Under the pieces are notes generated by a model. That model saw only the letters and a program-made list of their open reading frames with translations. It was not told where the DNA came from and made no database searches. Shown here one piece after another: positions 4,352 to 20,515 of a stretch of DNA of 22,735 nucleotides. The stretch is taken from positions 1 through 22,735 of IMG/VR virus record IMGVR_UViG_3300009124_000110; one strand, 5' to 3'. The stretch comes from a virus. Every line of letters starts with the position of its first letter. Position 1 is the first letter of the stretch. The translations under genes and the position numbers were made by a program.

Positions 4352-6328
4352 TTATCTATAGGGATCATACAGTAGACTGAGCAATGCTGCACCACCAGCA
4401 GCATAGGGGTTTTGTGTCATCCCATACGCACTGAATCCTGCTCCTGCTGCTCCAAGGAGGGGGTTGCTCTGATACCGTGGTTGAGTGGTCTGGACAATTG
4501 ATCCGGTAGCTGGAGAAATGGCAGCATTTCTGAGGTCAATCTGTCTGCCAGGGTAGTCCAACTCCCGATTGAATTCGGAGTAAATGAAATCAAGATCCTG
4601 CTGATCTCTTCCCGACTGTCCTGCTCCTGCTGCCAGCATGTCTGCCAGTCGTTGACGTTCATCTGCTATCGACATCTGTTGCAGGTTCCCCAGAGCATTA
4701 GCACCCTGCAGGTTGAGGGCACCAGCACCCTGCCTAAACTGTTCTGCCAGTCTCGCCTGTTCTACGCCCAACTGATTCCCTTGCATCTGGAGTTGGTTCT
4801 GGAAACCCATTGCATCCCGATCAGACTGCGCTCCAAGTGTCTGCGCTGCCAATCCACCTTGCGAAATTAGTCCACGAACATTCTGCAGATCTTGAGCTGT
4901 TAAATTCTGACCCTGCAGGTTCCCCTGACTAGCATACCCCCTGACACTCTGTAGATCTTGGGCAGTCAACCCTAGTCTCTGCAGTTGTTCCTGTTGCGCC
5001 AAATCTGCTGCCTTCTGGAACCCCTGAGAACGTAATTGTCCAACTGCTGCTGCCGTTCTGTCTGCAAAGTTCCTTGCATTTTCAGAACGCATCAATGCCT
5101 CTCTGGAACCTCCGAATGCCCCTTGTTTTGCAGCATTGCTGGAAATGTCCATGTCCGTTATGCGACGTGCACGGTCTAGGTCTTTGATCGTTTGATCGAC
5201 GACTTGGGAAGTATATGGGTTTTCGAACTGTGACAGATTCTGTTGGAAAGATCGTTGACCTTGGTAATTGATTGGTCCCTGCAGATTCCTGTTTGCATTC
5301 TCATAGTTCGATGACGTTAGTCCTGCATTCACATTACTATATGTGTTTGCTCTTGGGCCACTGATGTCGATGGCAGCAGGAGTAAACCTTGAACCGTAGT
5401 TTGCGACTTGTTGGGCAGAGGAGATTGCAGAGGCGAAAGGGTCTGTCCCTGATGGGCCGAATCGATCAGCATAACGTCCTGCCATTAAACTTTCGCCTGT
5501 CAACGTGTTTGCGTTTGGTGCCGCAAAACGTTGACGGTCGTATGCTTGGAACGGGGTCATCTTCGACGCATCAAACTCGTATGTTGGTTCTGATGCCGTC
5601 TCTACTCCGGTGTTCCCAGAAGTGTTGCTGGAAGAACTGTCAGAGGAACTGCTGGTATTATCATTATTGTCTGAGTCTCCAGAACCCCAGATCCAAGAAT
5701 CGTCACTACTGAATTCAAGACCACCATCTATTGCGGGAGGACTTGTGATGTCATACCCTGAGTCAGATTCATCATACCCATCACTGTAGGAGGATGGGTC
5801 TGTAAATGATCCATCATAGGTGTCAGACTCATAATAGTTGTCAGTCCCTTGATCTGAATAAGTATAGTCTCCAGATCCATACCCATCACTGTAGCTATAA
5901 CCCGTACTCCTGCCCATCCCTCGACTGGTCGTATTTTTCCGATCATCGACAAACCCTGGAGAATTGGGATTTTCGATTAGTCCTGTCCCAGGTTGGAAAC
6001 TATTCGACCCCATGTTCTGCAATGCCCTGCCAGAGACTCCACCAAACATTCCTCCACCAAATAAATTTCCTGTTATCCCCGCACCTGGTTCGGGCATGGG
6101 TTGGACAGGCATCGGATTCAACCCAAACTGCCCCACCTGAGAATTGGGTTGACCTTCGGCATTGTAGCCACGAATCCCAGAATAATCCCGACCCAGTGTG
6201 CTGGGTCGATAATTTGGATTCATCGTGTACTGATTGCCCATGTTTAAAGTGTCCTGGGCATAGTTCATGGCCCAATCTGGAATGTTCTGTTGCGTTACGG
6301 TTTGATTTCCGCTCTGACCTGAGTTCAT
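4352..6328 (-). CDS. putative DNA-ejection protein with Tyr/Ser/Asp-rich linker and 22-residue repeats
   Basis: A 658-residue protein with four visible parts. Residues 1-140 are Asn/Gln/Gly/Pro-rich. Residues 141-240 are extreme low complexity, made almost only of Y, S, D, G, T and N. Residues 255-450 hold a conserved-looking core with FENPYTSQVVDQ (368-379) and AAKQGAFGGSREALM (399-413), a pattern I recall from ejection-type proteins of marine podoviruses. Residues 454-563 carry five helical 22-residue repeats. Residues 621-654 are hydrophobic (GAAGAGFSAYG, GGAALLSLLYD) and could touch a membrane. The ATG overlaps the previous stop in an ATGA. It is the first of three large ejection-type genes. 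A tail-fibre or tape-measure role was considered, but the Ala/Gln helical C-terminal half and the neighbours favour an internal virion protein. Confidence 0.65.
   Translation of the reverse strand: MNSGQSGNQTVTQQNIPDWAMNYAQDTLNMGNQYTMNPNYRPSTLGRDYSGIRGYNAEGQPNSQVGQFGLNPMPVQPMPEPGAGITGNLFGGGMFGGVSGRALQNMGSNSFQPGTGLIENPNSPGFVDDRKNTTSRGMGRSTGYSYSDGYGSGDYTYSDQGTDNYYESDTYDGSFTDPSSYSDGYDESDSGYDITSPPAIDGGLEFSSDDSWIWGSGDSDNNDNTSSSSDSSSSNTSGNTGVETASEPTYEFDASKMTPFQAYDRQRFAAPNANTLTGESLMAGRYADRFGPSGTDPFASAISSAQQVANYGSRFTPAAIDISGPRANTYSNVNAGLTSSNYENANRNLQGPINYQGQRSFQQNLSQFENPYTSQVVDQTIKDLDRARRITDMDISSNAAKQGAFGGSREALMRSENARNFADRTAAAVGQLRSQGFQKAADLAQQEQLQRLGLTAQDLQSVRGYASQGNLQGQNLTAQDLQNVRGLISQGGLAAQTLGAQSDRDAMGFQNQLQMQGNQLGVEQARLAEQFRQGAGALNLQGANALGNLQQMSIADERQRLADMLAAGAGQSGRDQQDLDFIYSEFNRELDYPGRQIDLRNAAISPATGSIVQTTQPRYQSNPLLGAAGAGFSAYGMTQNPYAAGGAALLSLLYDPYR
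4640..4969 (-). repeat. five tandem 22-codon repeats in an ejection protein
   Basis: Residues 454-563 of the 658-residue protein divide into five 22-residue units beginning LTAQDLQS, LTAQDLQN, LGAQSDRD, LGVEQARL and GANALGNL. The first two are close copies (LTAQDLQ-x-VRG-x2-SQG-x-L); the others keep the helical Leu/Ala/Gln pattern. 22 residues equals two 11-residue (three-turn) helical periods, as in long amphipathic helices. The first two units lie at 4904-4969 and 4838-4903. Confidence 0.65.
5609..5908 (-). repeat. Tyr/Ser/Asp/Gly low-complexity segment
   Basis: Residues 141-240 of the 658-residue ejection-type protein consist almost entirely of S, D, Y, G, T and N, with recurrent SYSDGY-, YTYSDQ- and YSDGYDES-like units and then a poly-Ser stretch at about 226-236. 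The segment has almost no basic residues or aliphatic side chains and should be an acidic, disordered linker. On the DNA it creates long spurious open frames on the other strand. Confidence 0.75.
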
Positions 6329-10700: not shown

Positions 10701-12203
10701 CTAACCTCTAACGTGAAGGGTTCCGGTTGTGTTAATAGTACCTGTGGTGTTTAAGAGCCCATCAAGGACCAGCAGTTTGCCTGCGATTGTCACCGTGTTT
10801 GAAAATGATACGGGGCCAACATAAAATCTGTGATTCCCTGAACTAATCGTTTCTGCAGTGGTGACTGAATTTGCGTGTTCTAGGTCTGACAACCCACCAC
10901 CTCCCGACTCATCTGCGAATTCCAGAGCAGTCGCCCCAGTGTTGACCTTTAGCACTTGTCCTGCAGTTCCAATCGTAGTCAGTCCAGTACCTCCGTTTGC
11001 CGTTCCAAGGGTCCCAGAAACATCTGTTGTTAAAACAATCGGACCAAGTGTAATTGTCTGAGAAGACAGACTGAGGTAATCGTGAGAAGTGGTGACTAAA
11101 CTGACCGGAGTCGAATTGTCTGTTCCCGATACATCCACACCTAATGTATTCCTAGCTGCTGCAGCGTCAGCGTCATCAACCAAAGTCGCACCAAATGCAC
11201 TGATCCCGTGGACTTCCGTAAGTGCTGCGTGTGTACTGACAGAACCTGCTGATTCAAAAGCACTGGTGTCACTCGTGGCTGCGCTTCCAAGACCTAACGT
11301 TGTCCGCTGTGCTGCAGCATCCACATCGTCTAGTAATGCTCGTCCAGCAGTTGTCAGAGTAGCGACTGCATAGGTGTCCGCAGCAGTCGTGTAGATCATT
11401 TTGTCTGCGGCAGTCGTGAGTCCTGCGATGCTGGTTAGCCCAGCATCAGAGGTTTGATAACTGCCAAAGTCGGAGATTTGGGATTCTGTGATGGAAAGTG
11501 CAGCTTGATGCTGAGTGACTGATGATTGGGTGATGTTTGCGTCTGGGACATTCGCCCAAGTCACGGCAGCAGATAGATCATTCGTTTCTGCAGTGAGGTA
11601 TCCAGAATCATTGGTCCACTGACTGATGGCCCCTGATTTGTTCGCGAGGGTATTTGTACTGCTGGCTGTGATGTACGACCCCAGATCGCTGATCTGCGAT
11701 TCCGTAATCGTGGACTGTGTGGCAAGAGACCCCAACCCCAGATGTGTGGAAAGGGTGGTTGAGTTGATCCCTAGAGCAATCGTTCCAGACGTGGTTACGG
11801 GAGACCCAGAATCGATCTCGATTCCATCTGAACCACTGACCGAAACACTAGTGACGGTCCCAGAACCGGAGACTGTTTGGAACTCCAACCCATCGGCAGT
11901 TGCATTCACTGCCAGCACCTGATTTGCAGTTCCAAGTGCTGCCAGTCCAGTTCCCCCAGATTCCACAGGTAAAGTACCTGTCACATCTGCAGTCAGATCG
12001 ACATCCCCAACGGTGATCGCCTGCCCAGAGATGGTCAGGTAATCGTTCCCCGTTAAGCTGACATCGTCTCCGACTGAATCTGCGACCGTTTTAAGTGTTG
12101 AGTCGAGGGAGGTCCAGTTGGCATTCAGTTGGTTGCCCCACTGATCCGTGTCTCCACCTACTTCGGGGAGAGTAAAACTATAGTTCGTCGTCGAGGTAGC
12201 CAT
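10701..12203 (-). CDS. tail fibre protein with repeat shaft
   Basis: A 500-residue Ser/Thr/Ala/Gly-rich protein. Residues 1-45 are an anchoring module (TTNYSFTLPEVGGDTDQWGN...LNANW) shared with two neighbouring proteins. The shaft is made of phage-fibre repeats: LTADVTGTLPVESGGTGL and LTTDVSGTLGTANGGTGL (each followed by xxxGTAxQVLxVN), HLGLGSLATQ, TLGLGSAATS and several ITESQISDxGSY units. The end (GNHRFYVGPVSFSNTVTIAG) is a likely C-terminal beta domain. Trimeric shaft structure is inferred from the family. The start is the ATG at 12203, which shares one base with the upstream stop (TGATG); two upstream TTG codons are in frame but not preferred. The product should attach to the tail by its N-terminus and reach towards the host. 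Confidence 0.8.
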   Translation of the reverse strand: MATSTTNYSFTLPEVGGDTDQWGNQLNANWTSLDSTLKTVADSVGDDVSLTGNDYLTISGQAITVGDVDLTADVTGTLPVESGGTGLAALGTANQVLAVNATADGLEFQTVSGSGTVTSVSVSGSDGIEIDSGSPVTTSGTIALGINSTTLSTHLGLGSLATQSTITESQISDLGSYITASSTNTLANKSGAISQWTNDSGYLTAETNDLSAAVTWANVPDANITQSSVTQHQAALSITESQISDFGSYQTSDAGLTSIAGLTTAADKMIYTTAADTYAVATLTTAGRALLDDVDAAAQRTTLGLGSAATSDTSAFESAGSVSTHAALTEVHGISAFGATLVDDADAAAARNTLGVDVSGTDNSTPVSLVTTSHDYLSLSSQTITLGPIVLTTDVSGTLGTANGGTGLTTIGTAGQVLKVNTGATALEFADESGGGGLSDLEHANSVTTAETISSGNHRFYVGPVSFSNTVTIAGKLLVLDGLLNTTGTINTTGTLHVRG

Positions 12204-13117
12204 CAACAAGCACTCGTATCAGGTTCTGGAAGAGTCAGAGTGTAGGTTTTACAAGTCAAATAGTAATCATAGACTGTGATCGGAGTGTTCGGCAGTCCGT
12301 CATCGGGGTAGTCCACCTGAAAGGGTCCTGACCCAGTCCAGGCACTGGATAACTGAATGGCGATTGTGGGTATCAGATTTCCTCGAAAATCAGTAGAACT
12401 GCCATTGGAGATGCTCACTGTCGTCCCGGGCGTAATTGTCCCATTTGTAATCGATGCCACAACTACCGTGGTTCCAATATCGGTAAGGGTGTAACTCGTT
12501 AGACTAGGCAGAGTTAAAATCATCGATGTTCCCCTAACTCCTCCCGTGCCAGCAGGAGTGCTTCCTCCTCCTGCTGCCAAGGCCGAATACGTGCCACTGG
12601 CAACTGAACTGCTGGTTAGGGCAAATCCAAGGGTGGAGGTCGATGTTAAAGACCAGGTGATGTAATCCTCATAATTCAGAATTCTATCTGAATAGTGGTT
12701 AGCGATGCAGATTTCCTGCTCTGCTGTAGCGACCAGAGTGTCCAGACTGTCGAGTTTCCCATTGAGGAAATTGGCAAAGGTCGCAAAATCTCCTCCGTCA
12801 AAGAATGTGTTGATCTCGCTTGCTGTCTCAGGGGGGGAGAGCCCCAGTGCAGTTAATTCTGTATTGTAAGCAGGCCAAGTCGAGACGGTGCTGTAATCCC
12901 CTGAGTAGGGATCTGGCAAAATCCCGTCAATGTCCTCATTGATTTGTGCCAAGGTGGAACTGTCTCCGACTCCTGCTGCATTGATCCGATCACTCAAGTT
13001 CTTGAGCTTGGTTTCCAGTGCCTGAAAATAGGTGTTGATGATTGTCCCATAGGTGCTGTTATCCTGATTCAGACTCGGCAACTCCAGGTCAGTATAGATT
13101 GATGAATTAAACGGCAT
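12203..13117 (-). CDS. tail fibre/spike-like protein with the shared N-terminal module
   Basis: A 304-residue protein. Residues 7-45 (SIYTDLELPSLNQDNSTYGT then INTYFQALETKLK) align by eye with the N-terminal module of the two neighbouring fibre proteins, although more diverged (WG becomes YG, LN becomes IN). Residues 60-145 are mixed helical, with acidic DPYSGDYSTVSTWPAYNTEL. Residues 150-300 are Ser/Thr/Gly-rich beta sequence that ends with VYDYYLTCKTYTLTLPEPD. There are few cysteines, two of them near the end. It is probably a second kind of fibre or a tail appendage protein. It begins two bases after the previous stop, with no strong ribosome site, so translation is probably coupled. No enzymatic or glycan-binding family was recognised. 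Confidence 0.6.
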   Translation of the reverse strand: MPFNSSIYTDLELPSLNQDNSTYGTIINTYFQALETKLKNLSDRINAAGVGDSSTLAQINEDIDGILPDPYSGDYSTVSTWPAYNTELTALGLSPPETASEINTFFDGGDFATFANFLNGKLDSLDTLVATAEQEICIANHYSDRILNYEDYITWSLTSTSTLGFALTSSSVASGTYSALAAGGGSTPAGTGGVRGTSMILTLPSLTSYTLTDIGTTVVVASITNGTITPGTTVSISNGSSTDFRGNLIPTIAIQLSSAWTGSGPFQVDYPDDGLPNTPITVYDYYLTCKTYTLTLPEPDTSAC

Positions 13118-13119
13118 AC

Positions 13120-13491
13120 TTAGGTTGTCGCTGCAGTGTAGGCTGATTGAGCAGTGGTCTTTGCAGTCCTAGCATCATCTGCCACAGATCCGGTTGTCCC
13201 GACTGCTCCCACGGTAGTTTCTAGTGCAGAGACTCGACTCGTCAGACTCGTCAGTGTGGTGTTTAAGGATTTGTTACTCACACTGAGAGCCGTGCTGGCA
13301 TTTGTCGATGCCTGGGTCAGGTTATATGCAAGGGAAGGCGTGGCACTGTCATCCGCAGCACCCAGCACCTGATCCACATCGTATGTCTTTTGCTCAAGTA
13401 CCGTGAAGGCTGAGTTCAAGGTGGAACCCCAGGTGTTTTTGTTTCCTCCTACCGTTGGCAGCGTGATGCTGTAATTTGTCGTTATTGGCAT
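13120..13491 (-). CDS. short fibre-adaptor-like protein with shared N-terminal module and coiled coil
   Basis: A 123-residue protein. Residues 3-40 (TTNYSITLPTVGGNKNTWGS then LNSAFTVLEQK) are very close to the N-terminus of the 500-residue fibre encoded 0.9 kb downstream. Residues 55-100 look like a trimeric coiled coil (heptad-like LNTTLTSLTSRVSALETTV), and the end is Ala/Thr-rich. It lacks any tip domain. It may therefore be an adaptor or truncated fibre stub rather than a full receptor-binding protein. The ATG directly follows the stop of the tryptophan-repeat gene (TAGATG). Confidence 0.65.
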   Translation of the reverse strand: MPITTNYSITLPTVGGNKNTWGSTLNSAFTVLEQKTYDVDQVLGAADDSATPSLAYNLTQASTNASTALSVSNKSLNTTLTSLTSRVSALETTVGAVGTTGSVADDARTAKTTAQSAYTAATT

Positions 13492-14689: not shown

Positions 14690-15670
14690 TTAAGAAGTGG
14701 TTAAGTCGAAGATTCCACCCAATCCAGCTTCTTCGGTTACTTCTAGTCCAAATTCACATCGGACGACTGCTGTTTCTTCGTCTCCAATTTTTCCAAGACG
14801 TTCTGTCTCAAAATTTCGAAGATAAACTACCTTGCACATCGAATCGTCGACGAGATAGGCATCCCGCTCCCGCATAAACCGATTTGGCTTCACGGCTAAA
14901 TCTCCAAAATCCGTAGCAAAAACAGACACATTGGCTCCTGCCCGATTACTGTCAATCAGTTCTCTGGCAATTCCTCGACCTGTCAACGTGGAGACAACGG
15001 TTTTGTTAAATGGACCAACCATCAACATATCCGGTTCGCCACCGTTGGAGAAACAACTCTGAGCAACTGTATTGATCAGTAATGCTGTTAGGGCACGTTG
15101 TGCAGAGGAGTCAGTCCGTGCAGTAGAGCCAACGGTAACAGGGTCCGCACCCGATGTTGCATCAAAGCTAGTGTTGGTCGTTAGCCAAGCACCTATTGTT
15201 GCCGTGGTTCGTGCTGTTCCAGAAGCACCATTGTTTCGTGCCTGATTGCTGGTTAAGACTGCCTCCATGGAACGTTTGAGTTCCTTGGATTTCTTGGTCA
15301 ACTGGTATGCTAGTTGACCTTCAGATTTCCCATAAATGGCGATCCGTGCCTGAGTGCCTGACACACTGGCGTTTCTGCTCATGATCTGGCAGATGTTACT
15401 CAGACGAGTGGCGTGAGTGATGGCAACACGGGTCGTCTGATCCGCTTCGACATCTGCTGTCGTTGAGGTCGCTGCAAGATCGTCCGTTAACCACTCGAAA
15501 ATAGTGTTGTTGGTGTCCCTGGTGCCAATTGCTGACAGAAAGGGGGTCTCTGTAGGCGAAATATTCATGATGAGCTTCGCTACATCAGGCATTGCCTCGT
15601 CTGCAGAGGATGCATAAACCTTTTTATCTCCCATGTCATAAGACTGGGAGGTTCCGCTAATGACTGCCAT
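14690..15670 (-). CDS. major capsid protein (DUF5309/SU10-type, HK97 fold)
   Basis: A 326-residue protein. The N-terminus has DVAKLIMNISPTETPFLSAI at 29-48, then NTIFEWLTDDLAA, TRLSNICQIMSRNASVSGT and a helical YQLTKKSKELKRSMEAVLTS. Later segments are PDMLMVGPFNKTVVSTLTG, VFATDFGDLAVKPNRFM and YLVDDSMCKVVYLRNFETE, with an acidic C-terminus. The series PxxTPFLSxI, FEWxxDxL, Q, N..Q, K, E, Lx.N, G, MVxP..K, and TDFG, L is that of the DUF5309 (SU10 major capsid) family. The best ribosome site in the region (AGGAG, six bases before the ATG, after a 14-base gap) agrees with a highly expressed structural gene. The scaffold lies directly upstream. Confidence 0.88.
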   Translation of the reverse strand: MAVISGTSQSYDMGDKKVYASSADEAMPDVAKLIMNISPTETPFLSAIGTRDTNNTIFEWLTDDLAATSTTADVEADQTTRVAITHATRLSNICQIMSRNASVSGTQARIAIYGKSEGQLAYQLTKKSKELKRSMEAVLTSNQARNNGASGTARTTATIGAWLTTNTSFDATSGADPVTVGSTARTDSSAQRALTALLINTVAQSCFSNGGEPDMLMVGPFNKTVVSTLTGRGIARELIDSNRAGANVSVFATDFGDLAVKPNRFMRERDAYLVDDSMCKVVYLRNFETERLGKIGDEETAVVRCEFGLEVTEEAGLGGIFDLTTS

Positions 15671-15684
15671 TTCAGTCTCCTAAT

Positions 15685-16635
15685 TTAATTTCCTAAAAGA
15701 GCAGCAAATGCTGCTGTTGCGTCTGCTGTAGATCCTGACTTCTCCAGACGACCCATTGCTTTGTTGAAGTTGGTCTGCCGTCGAGTTGTTGGACCCTGTG
15801 GAGATCGACCACGAACCCGTGCTGTTTTCACAGTGGGTTCTTGCGACTCCTTGAGTGCTTGCTTGCCTTGTGACAACGATTTATTGGCACTGTAGGCATC
15901 ATATAAAATTCGAACTAATCGGTGATCATAGGCGCTTTGCAAATCGGCATCGGTCAACCCGTAATACGATTTGGCAAAATCCCTGATCTCACTCTTCTCT
16001 TTCTTTGCCACCTCCGGATTTCTCCAGGAGGGGATAACTTCGTTGAGTAACTCTCTCTCCTTCGAGAGAGTTTCGTTAAACTGCTGCTGTTGGATGTACT
16101 GTTGCTCTTGCTTGACTGCTTCAAGTTGTGCTGATCGTTGTGCCCTGATGTTGGCACGGTCTTGTGCTAATTGACGTTGTTTGAGCCACTCCACTGGATC
16201 AGCATGTTGCAGTCGTTCCCAATCGATCTCCGGTTCCGGTATCGACGGCTCCTGCTGTAGCTGATAAGCAAAGGTATTTAGAGCATTAACCCGTTGGGCA
16301 TAGTCCTGCTGTAAGGATTCTAACTCCTTACGTTGTGCTGATAACGCCTGAGTCTTTCTGGTATAGTCTGCATTTCTGCTATACCCCTGCTGTAGCTCAC
16401 TGAGCGGCACCTCCACTTCTTCCCCGTCGATCTTAACGACATAGAGAGGTTCCTGCTCCTCCTCTACTTCTTCTTCGACTTCTTCTTCTTGTACATCTTC
16501 CTCTAATTGCTGTTGAGGAGTCTCCTCCTCTGGTTCTGGAGCAGATTCTTCTGGTTTTGGAATTGGGTTCCCAGAGAGTAATGCCTCAAATCCCTCTACG
16601 GTTGCCTGTTCAGTTGCCCGTGCTTCCTCACTCAT
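15685..16635 (-). CDS. capsid scaffolding protein
   Basis: A 316-residue protein. Residues 25-62 are a Pro/Glu-rich, very acidic tract (nearly all E between 45 and 60). Next come YVVKIDGEEVEVPLSELQQG and YSRNADYTRKTQALSAQRKE (about 64-105), a module common in scaffolding-type proteins encoded just before capsid genes. A long Gln-rich coiled coil follows (about 105-205), then a helical domain with WLKQRQLAQDR and EVIPSWRNPEVAKKEKSEI. The C-terminus (RVRGRSPQGPTTRRQTNFNK) is basic, as expected for capsid-contacting tails. No protease motif is visible, so the scaffold probably leaves the capsid by exit or by another protease. It shares an ATGA with the gene upstream. Confidence 0.8.
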   Translation of the reverse strand: MSEEARATEQATVEGFEALLSGNPIPKPEESAPEPEEETPQQQLEEDVQEEEVEEEVEEEQEPLYVVKIDGEEVEVPLSELQQGYSRNADYTRKTQALSAQRKELESLQQDYAQRVNALNTFAYQLQQEPSIPEPEIDWERLQHADPVEWLKQRQLAQDRANIRAQRSAQLEAVKQEQQYIQQQQFNETLSKERELLNEVIPSWRNPEVAKKEKSEIRDFAKSYYGLTDADLQSAYDHRLVRILYDAYSANKSLSQGKQALKESQEPTVKTARVRGRSPQGPTTRRQTNFNKAMGRLEKSGSTADATAAFAALLGN

Positions 16636-16874
16636 TCAGACCTCTTTCGACTGCTTTGTTTTGCTTGCTGAATCCCTCGTTGCGTCTGAGTATTTAGCAA
16701 CTGTTTGAGTGATGTCAGTGCCTCCAGCATGTACCATTGCCGTTCTCTCTGCTCTGTCGTTTCTGCCTGTTTCCAGAGACCAACATAAAAGGCTTCCAGT
16801 TCCTCAAAGGCTTTCTGGACACTTTCATTGGCAAGTACCCGCTTTGCCTCTTCTCCTAGTCGAATCTTATCCAC
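16632..16874 (-). CDS. small helical protein between portal and scaffold, unknown
   Basis: An 80-residue, all-helical, highly charged protein. It includes RVLANESVQKAFEELEAFYV and TTEQRERQWYMLEALTSLKQ, and a basic Gln-rich end. The start is GTG at 16874, with AAAGGA four bases before it. It overlaps the stop of the Cys-rich microprotein on one side and the scaffold ATG on the other. I recall similar ANxxxxxAFxxLExxYxxxW...ERxxxWxxLxALxxL proteins at this position in environmental podoviruses, without a function. A terminase small subunit was considered, but the position after the portal, the small size and the lack of an HTH make that speculative. Confidence 0.6.
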   Translation of the reverse strand: MDKIRLGEEAKRVLANESVQKAFEELEAFYVGLWKQAETTEQRERQWYMLEALTSLKQLLNTQTQRGIQQAKQSSRKRSE

Positions 16875-16971
16875 TATATCCTTTCTTGCGGCACCTACCC
16901 AATTTCATGCAGATTTGTGGGGTTGGGCAACCAATACATGGTTTAAAACGTCCACCTATCTTGTTAGGCAT
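16867..16971 (-). CDS. 34-residue four-cysteine microprotein, putative zinc-binding
   Basis: A short frame fills the 89-base space between the portal and the 80-residue gene. It starts with ATG at 16971 inside the last codons of the portal and stops at TAA 16867-16869 inside the GTG start region of the next gene. It has AGG six bases upstream. The 34 residues include KPCIGCPTPQICMKLGRC at positions 10-27, giving C12-x2-C15-x5-C21-x5-C27, followed by the basic tail RKKGYSG. Four cysteines in 16 residues with a CxxC and a basic end suggest a zinc knuckle or small metal-binding fold. The tight overlaps on both sides match the gene packing seen elsewhere in the operon. I have a vague memory of CxGCPTPxxC-type small proteins in phage head regions but cannot confirm it. 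Confidence 0.7.
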   Translation of the reverse strand: MPNKIGGRFKPCIGCPTPQICMKLGRCRKKGYSG

Positions 16972-19048
16972 TCGGCACCTGTTGTTGTTGTTGATAAAGT
17001 TGCTCTTGGACACTCATGTCCATTCGCTCTAGTTCACGGTTACGATTGACTGCCTGGACTAGGGGTCTAGCATCAATCTGAGTGTTGTACTTCAGTTGAA
17101 GTTCCTGGATGTCGAGGAAAGTCTTAGCCTCAAACTTGTCTCTCTCCAAGTCATCCTTCCGCCTCATTTCTTCCGCCTTCTGTTGCATCTCAAACTGAGT
17201 CTTCTGGATCTCACTCTGAGCCAAGATCTCTTCCGGAGACGGTTTGGGTTGCTGTTGCTGTTGTGCCTGTTGCATCTGCTGCTGCAGCATCTGCTGCATC
17301 TCCTCCGGAGATCTCAGGTATCGTGAACCATCAACCAACCCCTGCTCCTGGAGCAAACGCTGAAGGGTCTGATAGTAGTTCTCAACACTACAGATTGGGT
17401 TCATTGGGCCAAACTGAGAAATGATCTGCTCCTGCTTGGCAAGCAAAGCGAGAAGCGTTTGTGTGCGCTTCTCGTTGTTGCTGTCTAAGGAGAGAGAGAT
17501 TCGGACGTCATAGTCCGAAAAGGTCGAGGGATCGACTGGAATGTACTGACCCCGTAACCTCATCAAGATGGGTTCGGCAGTCATGTACGTTAGGGCAAGG
17601 TTGAGTAGTTTTTTGTAGAGGGGTTTGAATCCAGATTCAGCAACATTTCTGGCAACCAATTCCAAACGGGACTGTGCAGCTTTCTGAGATGCTGCCAGTC
17701 CTACCGCACTGGTCGATTGCAAGTGTTCCAACTCCAGTCCCTGAGATGCTCGTCCAACGCCAACCCGTTCCTCCTTGATCTGATCAAGGTACTGAATCAG
17801 TGGGAATGCCTGTTGACCAACGAAAGGCATGGTGAGCATTTGCAGAGCCTTGGAAACATCTCCACGGACATTGATCAGAGATCCGATCTTGTCCTGACTG
17901 AGTTGATCCCAATCAATGTAGTTCTCATTGAACATAATGCGAGGACGAGTCGACAGAGATAGACTGTCGAGGACGTTCCGCATGACGGCACTCTTGACCC
18001 GCTGAATGTCCTGCAGAGCATCGTAAACAGATAACCCCTCCCAGGTATGGGGTCGGGCATCGTAACGGATCAGCAGGAAAGGAGTGTCGGTAACAACCTC
18101 GTTGGAAAGCACTTCGTGAGCAGAGCCAATTGTACAGATCCTTCTTAGTTCTCTGACTCCGTCTCCGTCTTGGTCGACTCGACAGAAGCATTCGGCATAA
18201 TGGACGAATCGTCCTGCTGGATCGGAGGAAGTGTCCTCGTCCTCTTTCCAAGCAGGGTGACGTAACAACCACTCAGAATTGTTTCTGACATGGTCTTTCG
18301 TTCCTCCAAATTCGACGACTTCTTCGTAATCATAACCCAATTCCACGAGATCTGAGACTCTGAGCAGCATCCTGTGAGATACGATAGTTGCATCCTCGAC
18401 ACTTTTGGCTGTTCGGTTGATCAAAAACTCCTCACCAGGGAGACACTCCATCTTGATCTGACCATTCGGAGTCTTCCTTGTCAGATGGACATCGATCAAC
18501 CCTGTCTCTTCATCGGTTTCGCTACTCGTTACCTCGTACCCCTCTTGCAGAAACAAGTTGATCTGCATCTCGTTGAGTCCGGAAAGTCTGCGACTTTCGA
18601 CGTTATAGGTCTTGTCGTAGTAGATCTTCAGAATGCCTGTGCCACTAATCAGCATGTCCTTGATGGCATCCCCGAAAACCCCATAGGCATCAGACTGCTC
18701 CAAAAACCAGTTAGCTAGGTCTGTTGCCTGTTTCGCAGGTTGGACATCCTCCGGTCCTCTGGGCACGAACTCACAAATCTGCTCTCCAGAGAAGAAAACC
18801 CGCATGAGCGAAGGAACCATCGAATTCACGGCATCAAAGACGTCCCTGCTGACCACTTGGGATCGACCCTTCTCCTCATAGGGAGAAACATCAGACTCGC
18901 TAAACGGTTTCCCAAGAAAGAACCGTTGAGCGACAACTCTGCGGTTGCTCACATCGTTGTCGATATAGTCTATCGCATCATCTAGTGTGGACTTCACCCA
19001 TGCCTGGAGTTCTTCCTCCGTCATGGGTTCTAGGATTTCGTTACTCAA
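16964..19048 (-). CDS. portal protein (P22-like)
   Basis: A 694-residue protein, near the size of P22 gp1. The N-terminus is acidic and helical. Then come KGRSQVVSRDVFDAVNSMVP and SLMRVFFSGEQICEFVPRGP (about 60-100), a conserved portal wing segment; DAIKDMLISGTGILKIYYDK; and LPGEEFLINRTAKSVEDATI with SHRMLLRVSDLVELGYDYEE. Further motifs are TPFLLIRYDARPHTWEGLSV and GNVRGDV-like residues before a stem/crown helix containing RVGVGRASQGLELEHLQSTS. Residues 580-694 are Gln-rich coiled coil, as in the P22 barrel. The start is TTG at 19048, with AGGA seven bases upstream (19056-19059). An ATG eight codons later (19024) has no ribosome site, so TTG is preferred. The portal forms the ring through which the terminase encoded just upstream pumps DNA. 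Confidence 0.88.
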   Translation of the reverse strand: MSNEILEPMTEEELQAWVKSTLDDAIDYIDNDVSNRRVVAQRFFLGKPFSESDVSPYEEKGRSQVVSRDVFDAVNSMVPSLMRVFFSGEQICEFVPRGPEDVQPAKQATDLANWFLEQSDAYGVFGDAIKDMLISGTGILKIYYDKTYNVESRRLSGLNEMQINLFLQEGYEVTSSETDEETGLIDVHLTRKTPNGQIKMECLPGEEFLINRTAKSVEDATIVSHRMLLRVSDLVELGYDYEEVVEFGGTKDHVRNNSEWLLRHPAWKEDEDTSSDPAGRFVHYAECFCRVDQDGDGVRELRRICTIGSAHEVLSNEVVTDTPFLLIRYDARPHTWEGLSVYDALQDIQRVKSAVMRNVLDSLSLSTRPRIMFNENYIDWDQLSQDKIGSLINVRGDVSKALQMLTMPFVGQQAFPLIQYLDQIKEERVGVGRASQGLELEHLQSTSAVGLAASQKAAQSRLELVARNVAESGFKPLYKKLLNLALTYMTAEPILMRLRGQYIPVDPSTFSDYDVRISLSLDSNNEKRTQTLLALLAKQEQIISQFGPMNPICSVENYYQTLQRLLQEQGLVDGSRYLRSPEEMQQMLQQQMQQAQQQQQPKPSPEEILAQSEIQKTQFEMQQKAEEMRRKDDLERDKFEAKTFLDIQELQLKYNTQIDARPLVQAVNRNRELERMDMSVQEQLYQQQQQVPNA

Positions 19049-19114: not shown

Positions 19115-20515
19115 TCAAACCACGTTCCCAACAAAGGGTTGGGCATATCCACCCCTGGCACGATACCTGCCATCTGGAAGAACCGAACTCTGGGCAAACG
19201 TTAAGGAAAAACTGTCTCCATAGTCCGGAGATGCCCCAATTCTCTTGCTCAACTCGTCCTTGCGCTCCACCGCAATCTTGCCATTGGGACGGTAGACGTA
19301 CCGAATGGCAAGCAAGTCCCTCAATAACCCCTCCTCCTCCGGAATACTGACCTCGTCGTCAAACCACTCCTTTGCCTTGAAGTACAACTCTGCTCTGAGA
19401 TTCGCATAGGTTTCTCCCAAGGCAGGAGACTCCGACACATTGACCCCCTTCGCAGGAACTCCCCAAGATCGCAGAATGTCTAAGCACCCTGCTCCAACAC
19501 CTATATTATCCACCAACACCTCAGCGCAATCCGGTATACACCCCTCGTAGATGTCGAGGACTCTTCCTGCCAACTCGACCAAGTCCAACTTCTGATAACT
19601 GTAGATGCCCAGAATGCGTCTACCCTGTCGTACTGTGACTACACTATGGTCGGAACCATACCGTGCCGGATCAACCCCCATCACAATCGGGTAGTCGTCC
19701 GGAATGACGACCTCCCGATTGATGGCATCTGTCACCCTCTCTGCACTGAAGACCGTGTCGTCATCCTGACTTGGAAACTCCCCAATGACCCGCACTCTCC
19801 ACTGATTGCTAGACTCCGGATACTTCGACCTCATCTCCTCAATGAAAGACTCACTGACCAAAGGGTTGTCAAGGCACGAAACCGTCATCAGTTTCCAACC
19901 CTTCTTCGAAGAGTGGAAAACATCGTAAAAGAATCCACTGCTGTAGACAGGATTCCCAAATAACAGACAACAACTGTTCGGTGTGGAGAGACTCCCCAAT
20001 GAGGCTTCCCACACCGAAATCGGTACCCCAGAAGCCTCATCAATCACCAACATCACTCCTCCATGCGGAGGAGCATGGACCCCCTGCAAGGCAGTCGGAG
20101 ACTCTGCCCTCGCTACACGAAAACTGATAAACCCCCTCTCCGGTGAAGCAGTAAGTTCCAACCTCTCCTGCTTCACTGTGATCAAGTCCCTCAGTGCTGC
20201 TGGCAACATCCCATGCCACTTCTTCACCTCTGCTGCCAAGGCATCCTGCAGTTGGGCAATCGTCGGTGCCGTTACCACAATTTTGACGTCAATTCTCGTT
20301 AACAGAAACCAGAGCATCAAGACACTGGCACAATGGGATTTCCCTACCCCATGACCACTTTTTGTTGCTACAAGACGTTGTCCAGAAGCTATCGACTCCA
20401 TCACCTCCTGTTGCCAAGGCAACGGTTCCACGTTCAGCATGTTCCTCGAAAACCCAACCGGATCATCCCGATAGGTCTCCATGAACAACGCTATGGGGTT
20501 CTTTTGATTTTCCAT
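19115..20515 (-). CDS. terL: terminase large subunit (ATPase plus nuclease)
   Basis: A 466-residue protein with both terminase domains intact. Walker A is SGHGVGKS at 53-60, Walker B is VMLVIDEA at 154-161, and a coupling-type LLFGNP lies at 184-189. The RNase H-like nuclease carries GVDPARYGSD (D282), LVDNIGVGAG (D336) and SPDYGDSFSL (D431, D434), giving the usual acidic triad. PWQQEVMESI at 33-42 is the adenine-binding/Q-motif-like segment. It drives DNA packaging at the portal and cuts concatemers. The ATG at 20515 lies 25 bases inside the end of the RusA-like gene, with GAGAG just upstream, so the two are translationally coupled. The compact size and headful-type neighbours agree with a podovirus terminase, but the packaging mode cannot be read from sequence. 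No small subunit was recognised beside it. Confidence 0.93.
   Translation of the reverse strand: MENQKNPIALFMETYRDDPVGFSRNMLNVEPLPWQQEVMESIASGQRLVATKSGHGVGKSHCASVLMLWFLLTRIDVKIVVTAPTIAQLQDALAAEVKKWHGMLPAALRDLITVKQERLELTASPERGFISFRVARAESPTALQGVHAPPHGGVMLVIDEASGVPISVWEASLGSLSTPNSCCLLFGNPVYSSGFFYDVFHSSKKGWKLMTVSCLDNPLVSESFIEEMRSKYPESSNQWRVRVIGEFPSQDDDTVFSAERVTDAINREVVIPDDYPIVMGVDPARYGSDHSVVTVRQGRRILGIYSYQKLDLVELAGRVLDIYEGCIPDCAEVLVDNIGVGAGCLDILRSWGVPAKGVNVSESPALGETYANLRAELYFKAKEWFDDEVSIPEEEGLLRDLLAIRYVYRPNGKIAVERKDELSKRIGASPDYGDSFSLTFAQSSVLPDGRYRARGGYAQPFVGNVV

Follow-up and report, generated by a model that had tools for sequence, protein, structure and literature searches.

A conserved family of four-cysteine microproteins encoded near phage head and packaging genes

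The microgene and the head module around it

We analyzed a stretch of viral DNA of 22,735 nucleotides (IMG/VR record IMGVR_UViG_3300009124_000110; hereafter, the window) and focused on a very short gene that lies in a head module of SU10 type. The features of this module are listed here in the direction of transcription.

19115-20515, minus strand: terminase large subunit (phrog_2, E 7.2e-49; phrog_5902)
16964-19048, minus strand: portal protein, SU10 type (PF23899, E 2.8e-159; phrog_1216)
16976-16980, minus strand: AGGTG, possible ribosome-binding site of the microgene, read from the sequence, 4 bases before the ATG and within the portal 3' end
16867-16971, minus strand: four-cysteine microprotein gene, 34 codons, MPNKIGGRFKPCIGCPTPQICMKLGRCRKKGYSG
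16879-16887, minus strand: AAGAAAGGA, possible ribosome-binding site of the 80-aa gene, read from the sequence, within the tail codons of the microgene
16632-16874, minus strand: 80-aa gene after the microgene, with only a weak PHROG match (phrog_3550, E 0.043)
15685-16635, minus strand: head scaffolding protein (phrog_3927, E 1.6e-55)
14690-15670, minus strand: major capsid protein, SU10 type (PF17236, E 2e-80)

Based on the sequence, the microgene starts with an ATG at 16971-16969 and stops with a TAA at 16869-16867, and its product contains four cysteines (C12-x2-C15-x5-C21-x5-C27) followed by a basic tail, with a net charge of +8. The portal gene ends at 16964 and overlaps the ATG end of the microgene by 8 bases; similarly, the GTG of the downstream 80-aa gene at 16874 lies 8 bases inside the stop end, and the microgene fills the 89 bases (16875-16963) that separate its two neighbors. 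A preliminary description of this DNA had reported the 34-codon frame with its cysteine spacing and basic tail, the 89-base space, and the overlaps with the portal stop and the next start; all of these are exact, and we add the strand, which that description did not give. The frame remains open upstream to a GTG, which would give a 48 aa form; however, we favor the ATG because relatives match the ATG form in length. The tail codons AAG AAA GGA (16887-16879) form a purine-rich stretch ahead of the GTG of the 80-aa gene. The suggestion in the preliminary description that an overlooked gene lies here in a head operon is borne out by the surrounding SU10-type module and by the coding evidence described below.

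Two other parts of the window deserve mention. Three tail-fibre-like ORFs in a row (10701-13491, minus strand) have related N-terminal starts (TTNYSITLPTVGGNKNTWG, TTNYSFTLPEVGGDTDQWG, and IYTDLELPSLNQDNSTYG), which suggests that a fibre attachment segment has been duplicated. On the plus strand, antisense to the Gln-rich end of the portal gene, a frame with many cysteines (MGCCCCCACCICCCSICC, 17244-17363) reflects composition and is not a gene; this frame is probably the source of the second motif match in the window.

A virus-associated family under purifying selection

The motif CxxCx5Cx5C occurred in any open frame on average 0.04 times per dinucleotide-shuffled 22.7-kb window, and in 20,000 shuffled versions of the 105-base ORF, the open frame and the motif were never kept together, in agreement with the earlier view that the arrangement is hard to explain by chance. 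Searching a viral collection with a DNA pattern for CxxCPxPxxCxxxGxC, we found matches on at least 120 contigs. A frame-broken version of the pattern, which is not a matched control and is slightly more specific, gave 3 matches. Among the matches listed, 78 of the 80 retrieved are open ORFs; their lengths range from 26 to 87 aa (median, 37), their median net charge is +11, and they contain nearly no histidine. Family members are usually 26-60 aa long and strongly basic, and the consensus derived from their alignment is FKPCxGCPxPAKCKAAGKCxxK. The window ORF has the pattern CxxCxxPxxCx5C with all four cysteines and is short, basic, free-standing, and under purifying selection. We consider it practically certain that the microgene belongs to a real protein family.

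Because the search pattern itself fixed the cysteines, an unbiased test of their conservation was needed. When only FKPCxxCPxP was used for selection, the third and fourth cysteines were present in 109 of 110 unique cores; when only PxxC[KR]AxGKC was used, the first and second were present in 56 of 57. The two exceptions are one long chance frame and one contig end. The glycine is kept in 104/109 cores and the proline after the second cysteine in 46/57. Selection on the cysteine pattern is strict, and selection on the protein is strong. In the comparison of synonymous and nonsynonymous changes that had been proposed in the preliminary description, the pN/pS ratio of the window ORF against its relatives was 0.05-0.15, and the pooled ratio over independent pairs was 0.114 (P about 1e-22, simple binomial).

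The family is essentially virus-only and co-directional with head and packaging genes. In a scan of about 85,000 prokaryote genomes with a pattern similar to the viral one, there were 58 matches, of which only 2 are real members, the rest being mostly chance matches in GC-rich frames. Of these two, the first directly follows a terminase-like ORF on a contig of an Opitutae MAG, and the second is flanked by capsid-like and tail-like ORFs on a contig of a Legionellales MAG, with the neighbors recognized by eye in both cases; both contigs look like phage contigs that were binned with bacteria.

Pfam, NCBIfam, and PHROG hold no model that describes the four-cysteine core, probably in part because the members fall below the usual gene-calling length, and no relative of the microprotein was found in the PDB. 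A strictly conserved four-cysteine protein of ~30 residues that is carried by many uncultured phages (well over 100 contigs) has no model in three family libraries. Searches of phage records by tblastn with the 34 residues and with the family consensus gave no matches, an uninformative result given the short queries and the active low-complexity filter. Among 16 phage records, only that of phage C72C1 has the four-cysteine pattern; it is not present in the cultured phages CRP-4, P12053L, ICBM2, and SIO1, which carry a neighbor family of the GYNKPKRTP type, or in several phages with SU10-type portals. In the literature searched, we found no proteome for any phage carrying a family member. The number of small phage genes reported exceeds two million (PMC11323111). 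Small phage proteins without an assigned function are a known kind, and none of the libraries searched includes the four-cysteine family, which may be listed without a name in the small-gene catalogue of Fremin 2022.

Gene neighborhood, gain, and loss

In 56 of 78 loci, genes for TerL, portal, capsid, scaffold, or other structural proteins are found nearby, all on the same strand as the microgene. Among the 32 testable non-redundant loci, i.e., those containing a terminase, portal, capsid, or scaffold gene, 12 have the microgene within 300 nt of TerL, portal, capsid, or scaffold, compared with 4.0 by random placement (P 0.001). The family prefers a late head/packaging position; however, its members occupy different slots (before or after TerL, between TerL and portal, after portal, or after the capsid gene), and one member, in L050, sits among recombination genes, and therefore the link to the head is a statistical one. 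This preference may merely reflect that small insertions are tolerated in the late region.

The microgene is one member of a large family that is usually clustered with other Lys-rich microproteins. Such a microprotein, from any of nine families, is encoded within 700 nt in 123 of 177 unique loci (random mean, 45.7), a count with some circularity, since recurrence near the microgene was the reason for choosing these families; all of these Lys-rich neighbors (289/289) are on the strand of the microgene. They include phrog_2423, DUF6496 (PF20106), DUF6321 (PF19846), and DUF5872-like (PF19197) proteins, and for one neighbor family there is a weak match to part of phrog_220 (E 7e-4), a minor head/DNA-pilot family. 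Of 285 loci, 51 encode a phrog_2423-type protein within 600 nt of the four-cysteine core; in two loci (L116 and L361), such a protein is fused to the core. The window ORF itself matches neither the phrog_2423 nor the DUF6496 profile; only neighbors or fusion partners do. The window lacks Lys-rich companions, and L234 and L236 have two just upstream of the portal gene. Lys-rich islands near terminase and portal genes are seen in L116, L361, L054, L107, L098, and many other loci, with types that also include GLYANIHAKRKRI and GYNKPKRTPxHPxKSH; two island types also occur in the cultured roseophage CRP-4 and one of these in P12053L, ICBM2, and SIO1.

The microgene occupies the same slot in four viral contigs whose portals share 96-99% identity with that of the window. 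At 60% portal identity (L234-L236), we found the orthologue MPNPMKFKPCPTCPAPKVCAKLGRCIKQQKGRR, which directly precedes the 80-aa and scaffold genes (read out for L234 and L235) and whose stop overlaps the next ATG; at these loci, a 711-aa gene (at least 472 aa in L236) separates the portal gene from the microgene. Among the portal relatives examined with ≤41% identity, none has the microgene at this site, although the 80-aa and scaffold genes are often still present. Because the whole gene is absent in the more distant portal relatives, we conclude that the microgene is accessory rather than essential. An orthologue with a broken frame or a lost cysteine between intact flanking genes, named in the preliminary description as the finding that would speak against a real gene, was not seen.

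The large gene straight after the portal gene varies among SU10-type phages related to the window (L234:5088-7223, L236 from 5067, L238 from 4050, and L239:2971-5016). It encodes 472 to 711 aa starting with MRPQRYGSRRR or MAKQRYGARRR and is missing from the window; its site looks like a cargo or insertion slot. In L022, the scaffold gene after position 6064 is split into frames of 48 and 285 aa by a one-base shift relative to the near-identical L026, which is probably a sequencing or assembly error.

Proposed function and comparison with known systems

AlphaFold2 models built with 58-71 relatives and without metal are of only moderate confidence, with a pLDDT of 70 for the window protein and 80 for that of L072 and values near 80-88 in the core. 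They contain two short helices; the third cysteine lies in the first helix, and the second helix comes after the fourth cysteine. For these two models, no informative PDB match was obtained with Foldseek or VIA-align.

In a cytoplasmic protein, four invariant cysteines at short distances most often coordinate a single zinc ion. We tentatively favor that the microprotein is a metal-knuckle, nucleic-acid-binding late protein that acts in head assembly or DNA packaging. According to this model, the four cysteines would hold one metal ion, most likely zinc, as argued by the invariant four-cysteine chemistry, and would fold a knuckle of about 20 residues. Based on charge and neighbors, we suggest that the Lys/Arg tail binds DNA or RNA; based on gene position, the protein would be made late, together with the head genes, and would act on nucleic acid while the head is assembled or filled, possibly as a small accessory that binds DNA and belongs either to the packaging machine or to the packaged DNA. 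We also speculate, with low confidence, that the Lys-rich companions are packaged together with the four-cysteine protein as a nucleoprotein set, comparable to viral core proteins; such a set would enter the head with the DNA, would help to condense or release it, and would be a modular cassette that is reshuffled among aquatic phages. Through its association with terminase, portal, and scaffold genes and with a recurring set of Lys-rich microproteins, the family leads to the concrete hypothesis that phage head biology has a hidden layer.

A late-expression regulator and a host-directed accessory protein are serious rivals to a role in head assembly or packaging. Zinc-binding late activators are established in P2-like phages, and with this precedent, a basic four-cysteine protein that is free-standing, accessory, and co-directional with late genes might, by analogy, regulate gene expression as a metal knuckle that binds late mRNA, RNA polymerase, or late promoters. 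However, the sequence of the microprotein matches neither Ogr/Delta nor any zinc-finger family, and the position in the head operon and the co-clustering with Lys-rich proteins favor regulation no more than packaging; we therefore regard a regulatory function as possible but unlikely. The scattered positions, the gain and loss between relatives, and the variable gene island with its many small families would also fit a host-directed cargo gene, i.e., an inhibitor of growth or defense that occupies insertion-tolerant gaps in the late region together with other microproteins. Yet host-acting genes are more often early, and a process of the phage itself better explains why a single core is so strictly conserved in very different phages and why it is linked to structural genes, making such a cargo gene rather improbable as well.

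An iron-sulphur cluster or redox sensor would be considerably less probable still. WhiB-like proteins have C-x2-C-x5-C spacing with a proline after the second cysteine, and the same spacing and proline in the family (C-x2-C-P-x4-C) resemble three of the four WhiB cysteines; however, Pfam and NCBIfam gave no match to a WhiB or Fe-S family, the fourth cysteine follows the triad instead of preceding it, and the family has neither the turn nor the size of WhiB. That the ORF serves in cis only, coupling translation of the portal and 80-aa genes with an irrelevant peptide, could be suggested by the 8-base overlaps on both sides and the ribosome-binding-like stretch inside the tail codons, but it is very improbable, and we reject it on the selection evidence: RNA-level or cis-only explanations fail because pN/pS reveals strong selection on the protein, with synonymous sites varying freely while residues do not, and the same protein is found at unrelated positions. 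Finally, a chance ORF with a chance cysteine pattern, to which only a length below gene-finder acceptance would point, is refuted by the shuffling, the family of over 100 matches, the cysteine invariance, and pN/pS.

Several known systems can be set beside the microprotein. The zinc knuckle of retroviral nucleocapsid proteins (CCHC) offers a comparison of how the protein might work only: it shares a four-ligand knuckle of ~20 residues, basic flanks, and a place in a virus assembly gene set, but its ligands are C-x2-C-x4-H-x4-C rather than C-x2-C-x5-C-x5-C. The microprotein has no histidine ligand and no Pfam match, and it is not a member of the retroviral type. Ogr/Delta of P2-like phages are likewise small four-cysteine phage proteins tied to late genes, but they are about twice the size with other, wide cysteine spacing; at 34 aa and with no match to the Pfam profile, the microprotein does not belong with them. 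With WhiB-like Fe-S proteins, the family has the C-x2-C-P-x4-C stretch in common; however, membership there goes with C-x(14-22)-C-x2-C-x5-C and a profile match, and the microprotein has a different cysteine order, with the fourth cysteine on the other side, no Pfam match, and none of the other WhiB motifs. The phrog_2423, DUF6496, DUF6321, and DUF5872-like proteins are similarly small and Lys/Arg-rich and share the late-gene neighborhoods and strand of the four-cysteine family, but their sequences are unrelated and without the four-cysteine core. The closest counterpart with a name is the hypothetical protein WJE88103.1 (FAMCQIZV_CDS0022; GenBank OQ984150) of phage C72C1, which has the same CxxCPxPxxCx5C core (MKTCEHCPFPRRCEPAERCIAYKK...) and whose gene lies just ahead of the portal gene in a head module of SU10 type. 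It differs from the window protein in its length of 64 aa, in a C-terminal extension that it has in common with locus L097, and in a Glu in place of the conserved Gly two residues before the last cysteine. This GenBank member provides a named protein as a starting point.
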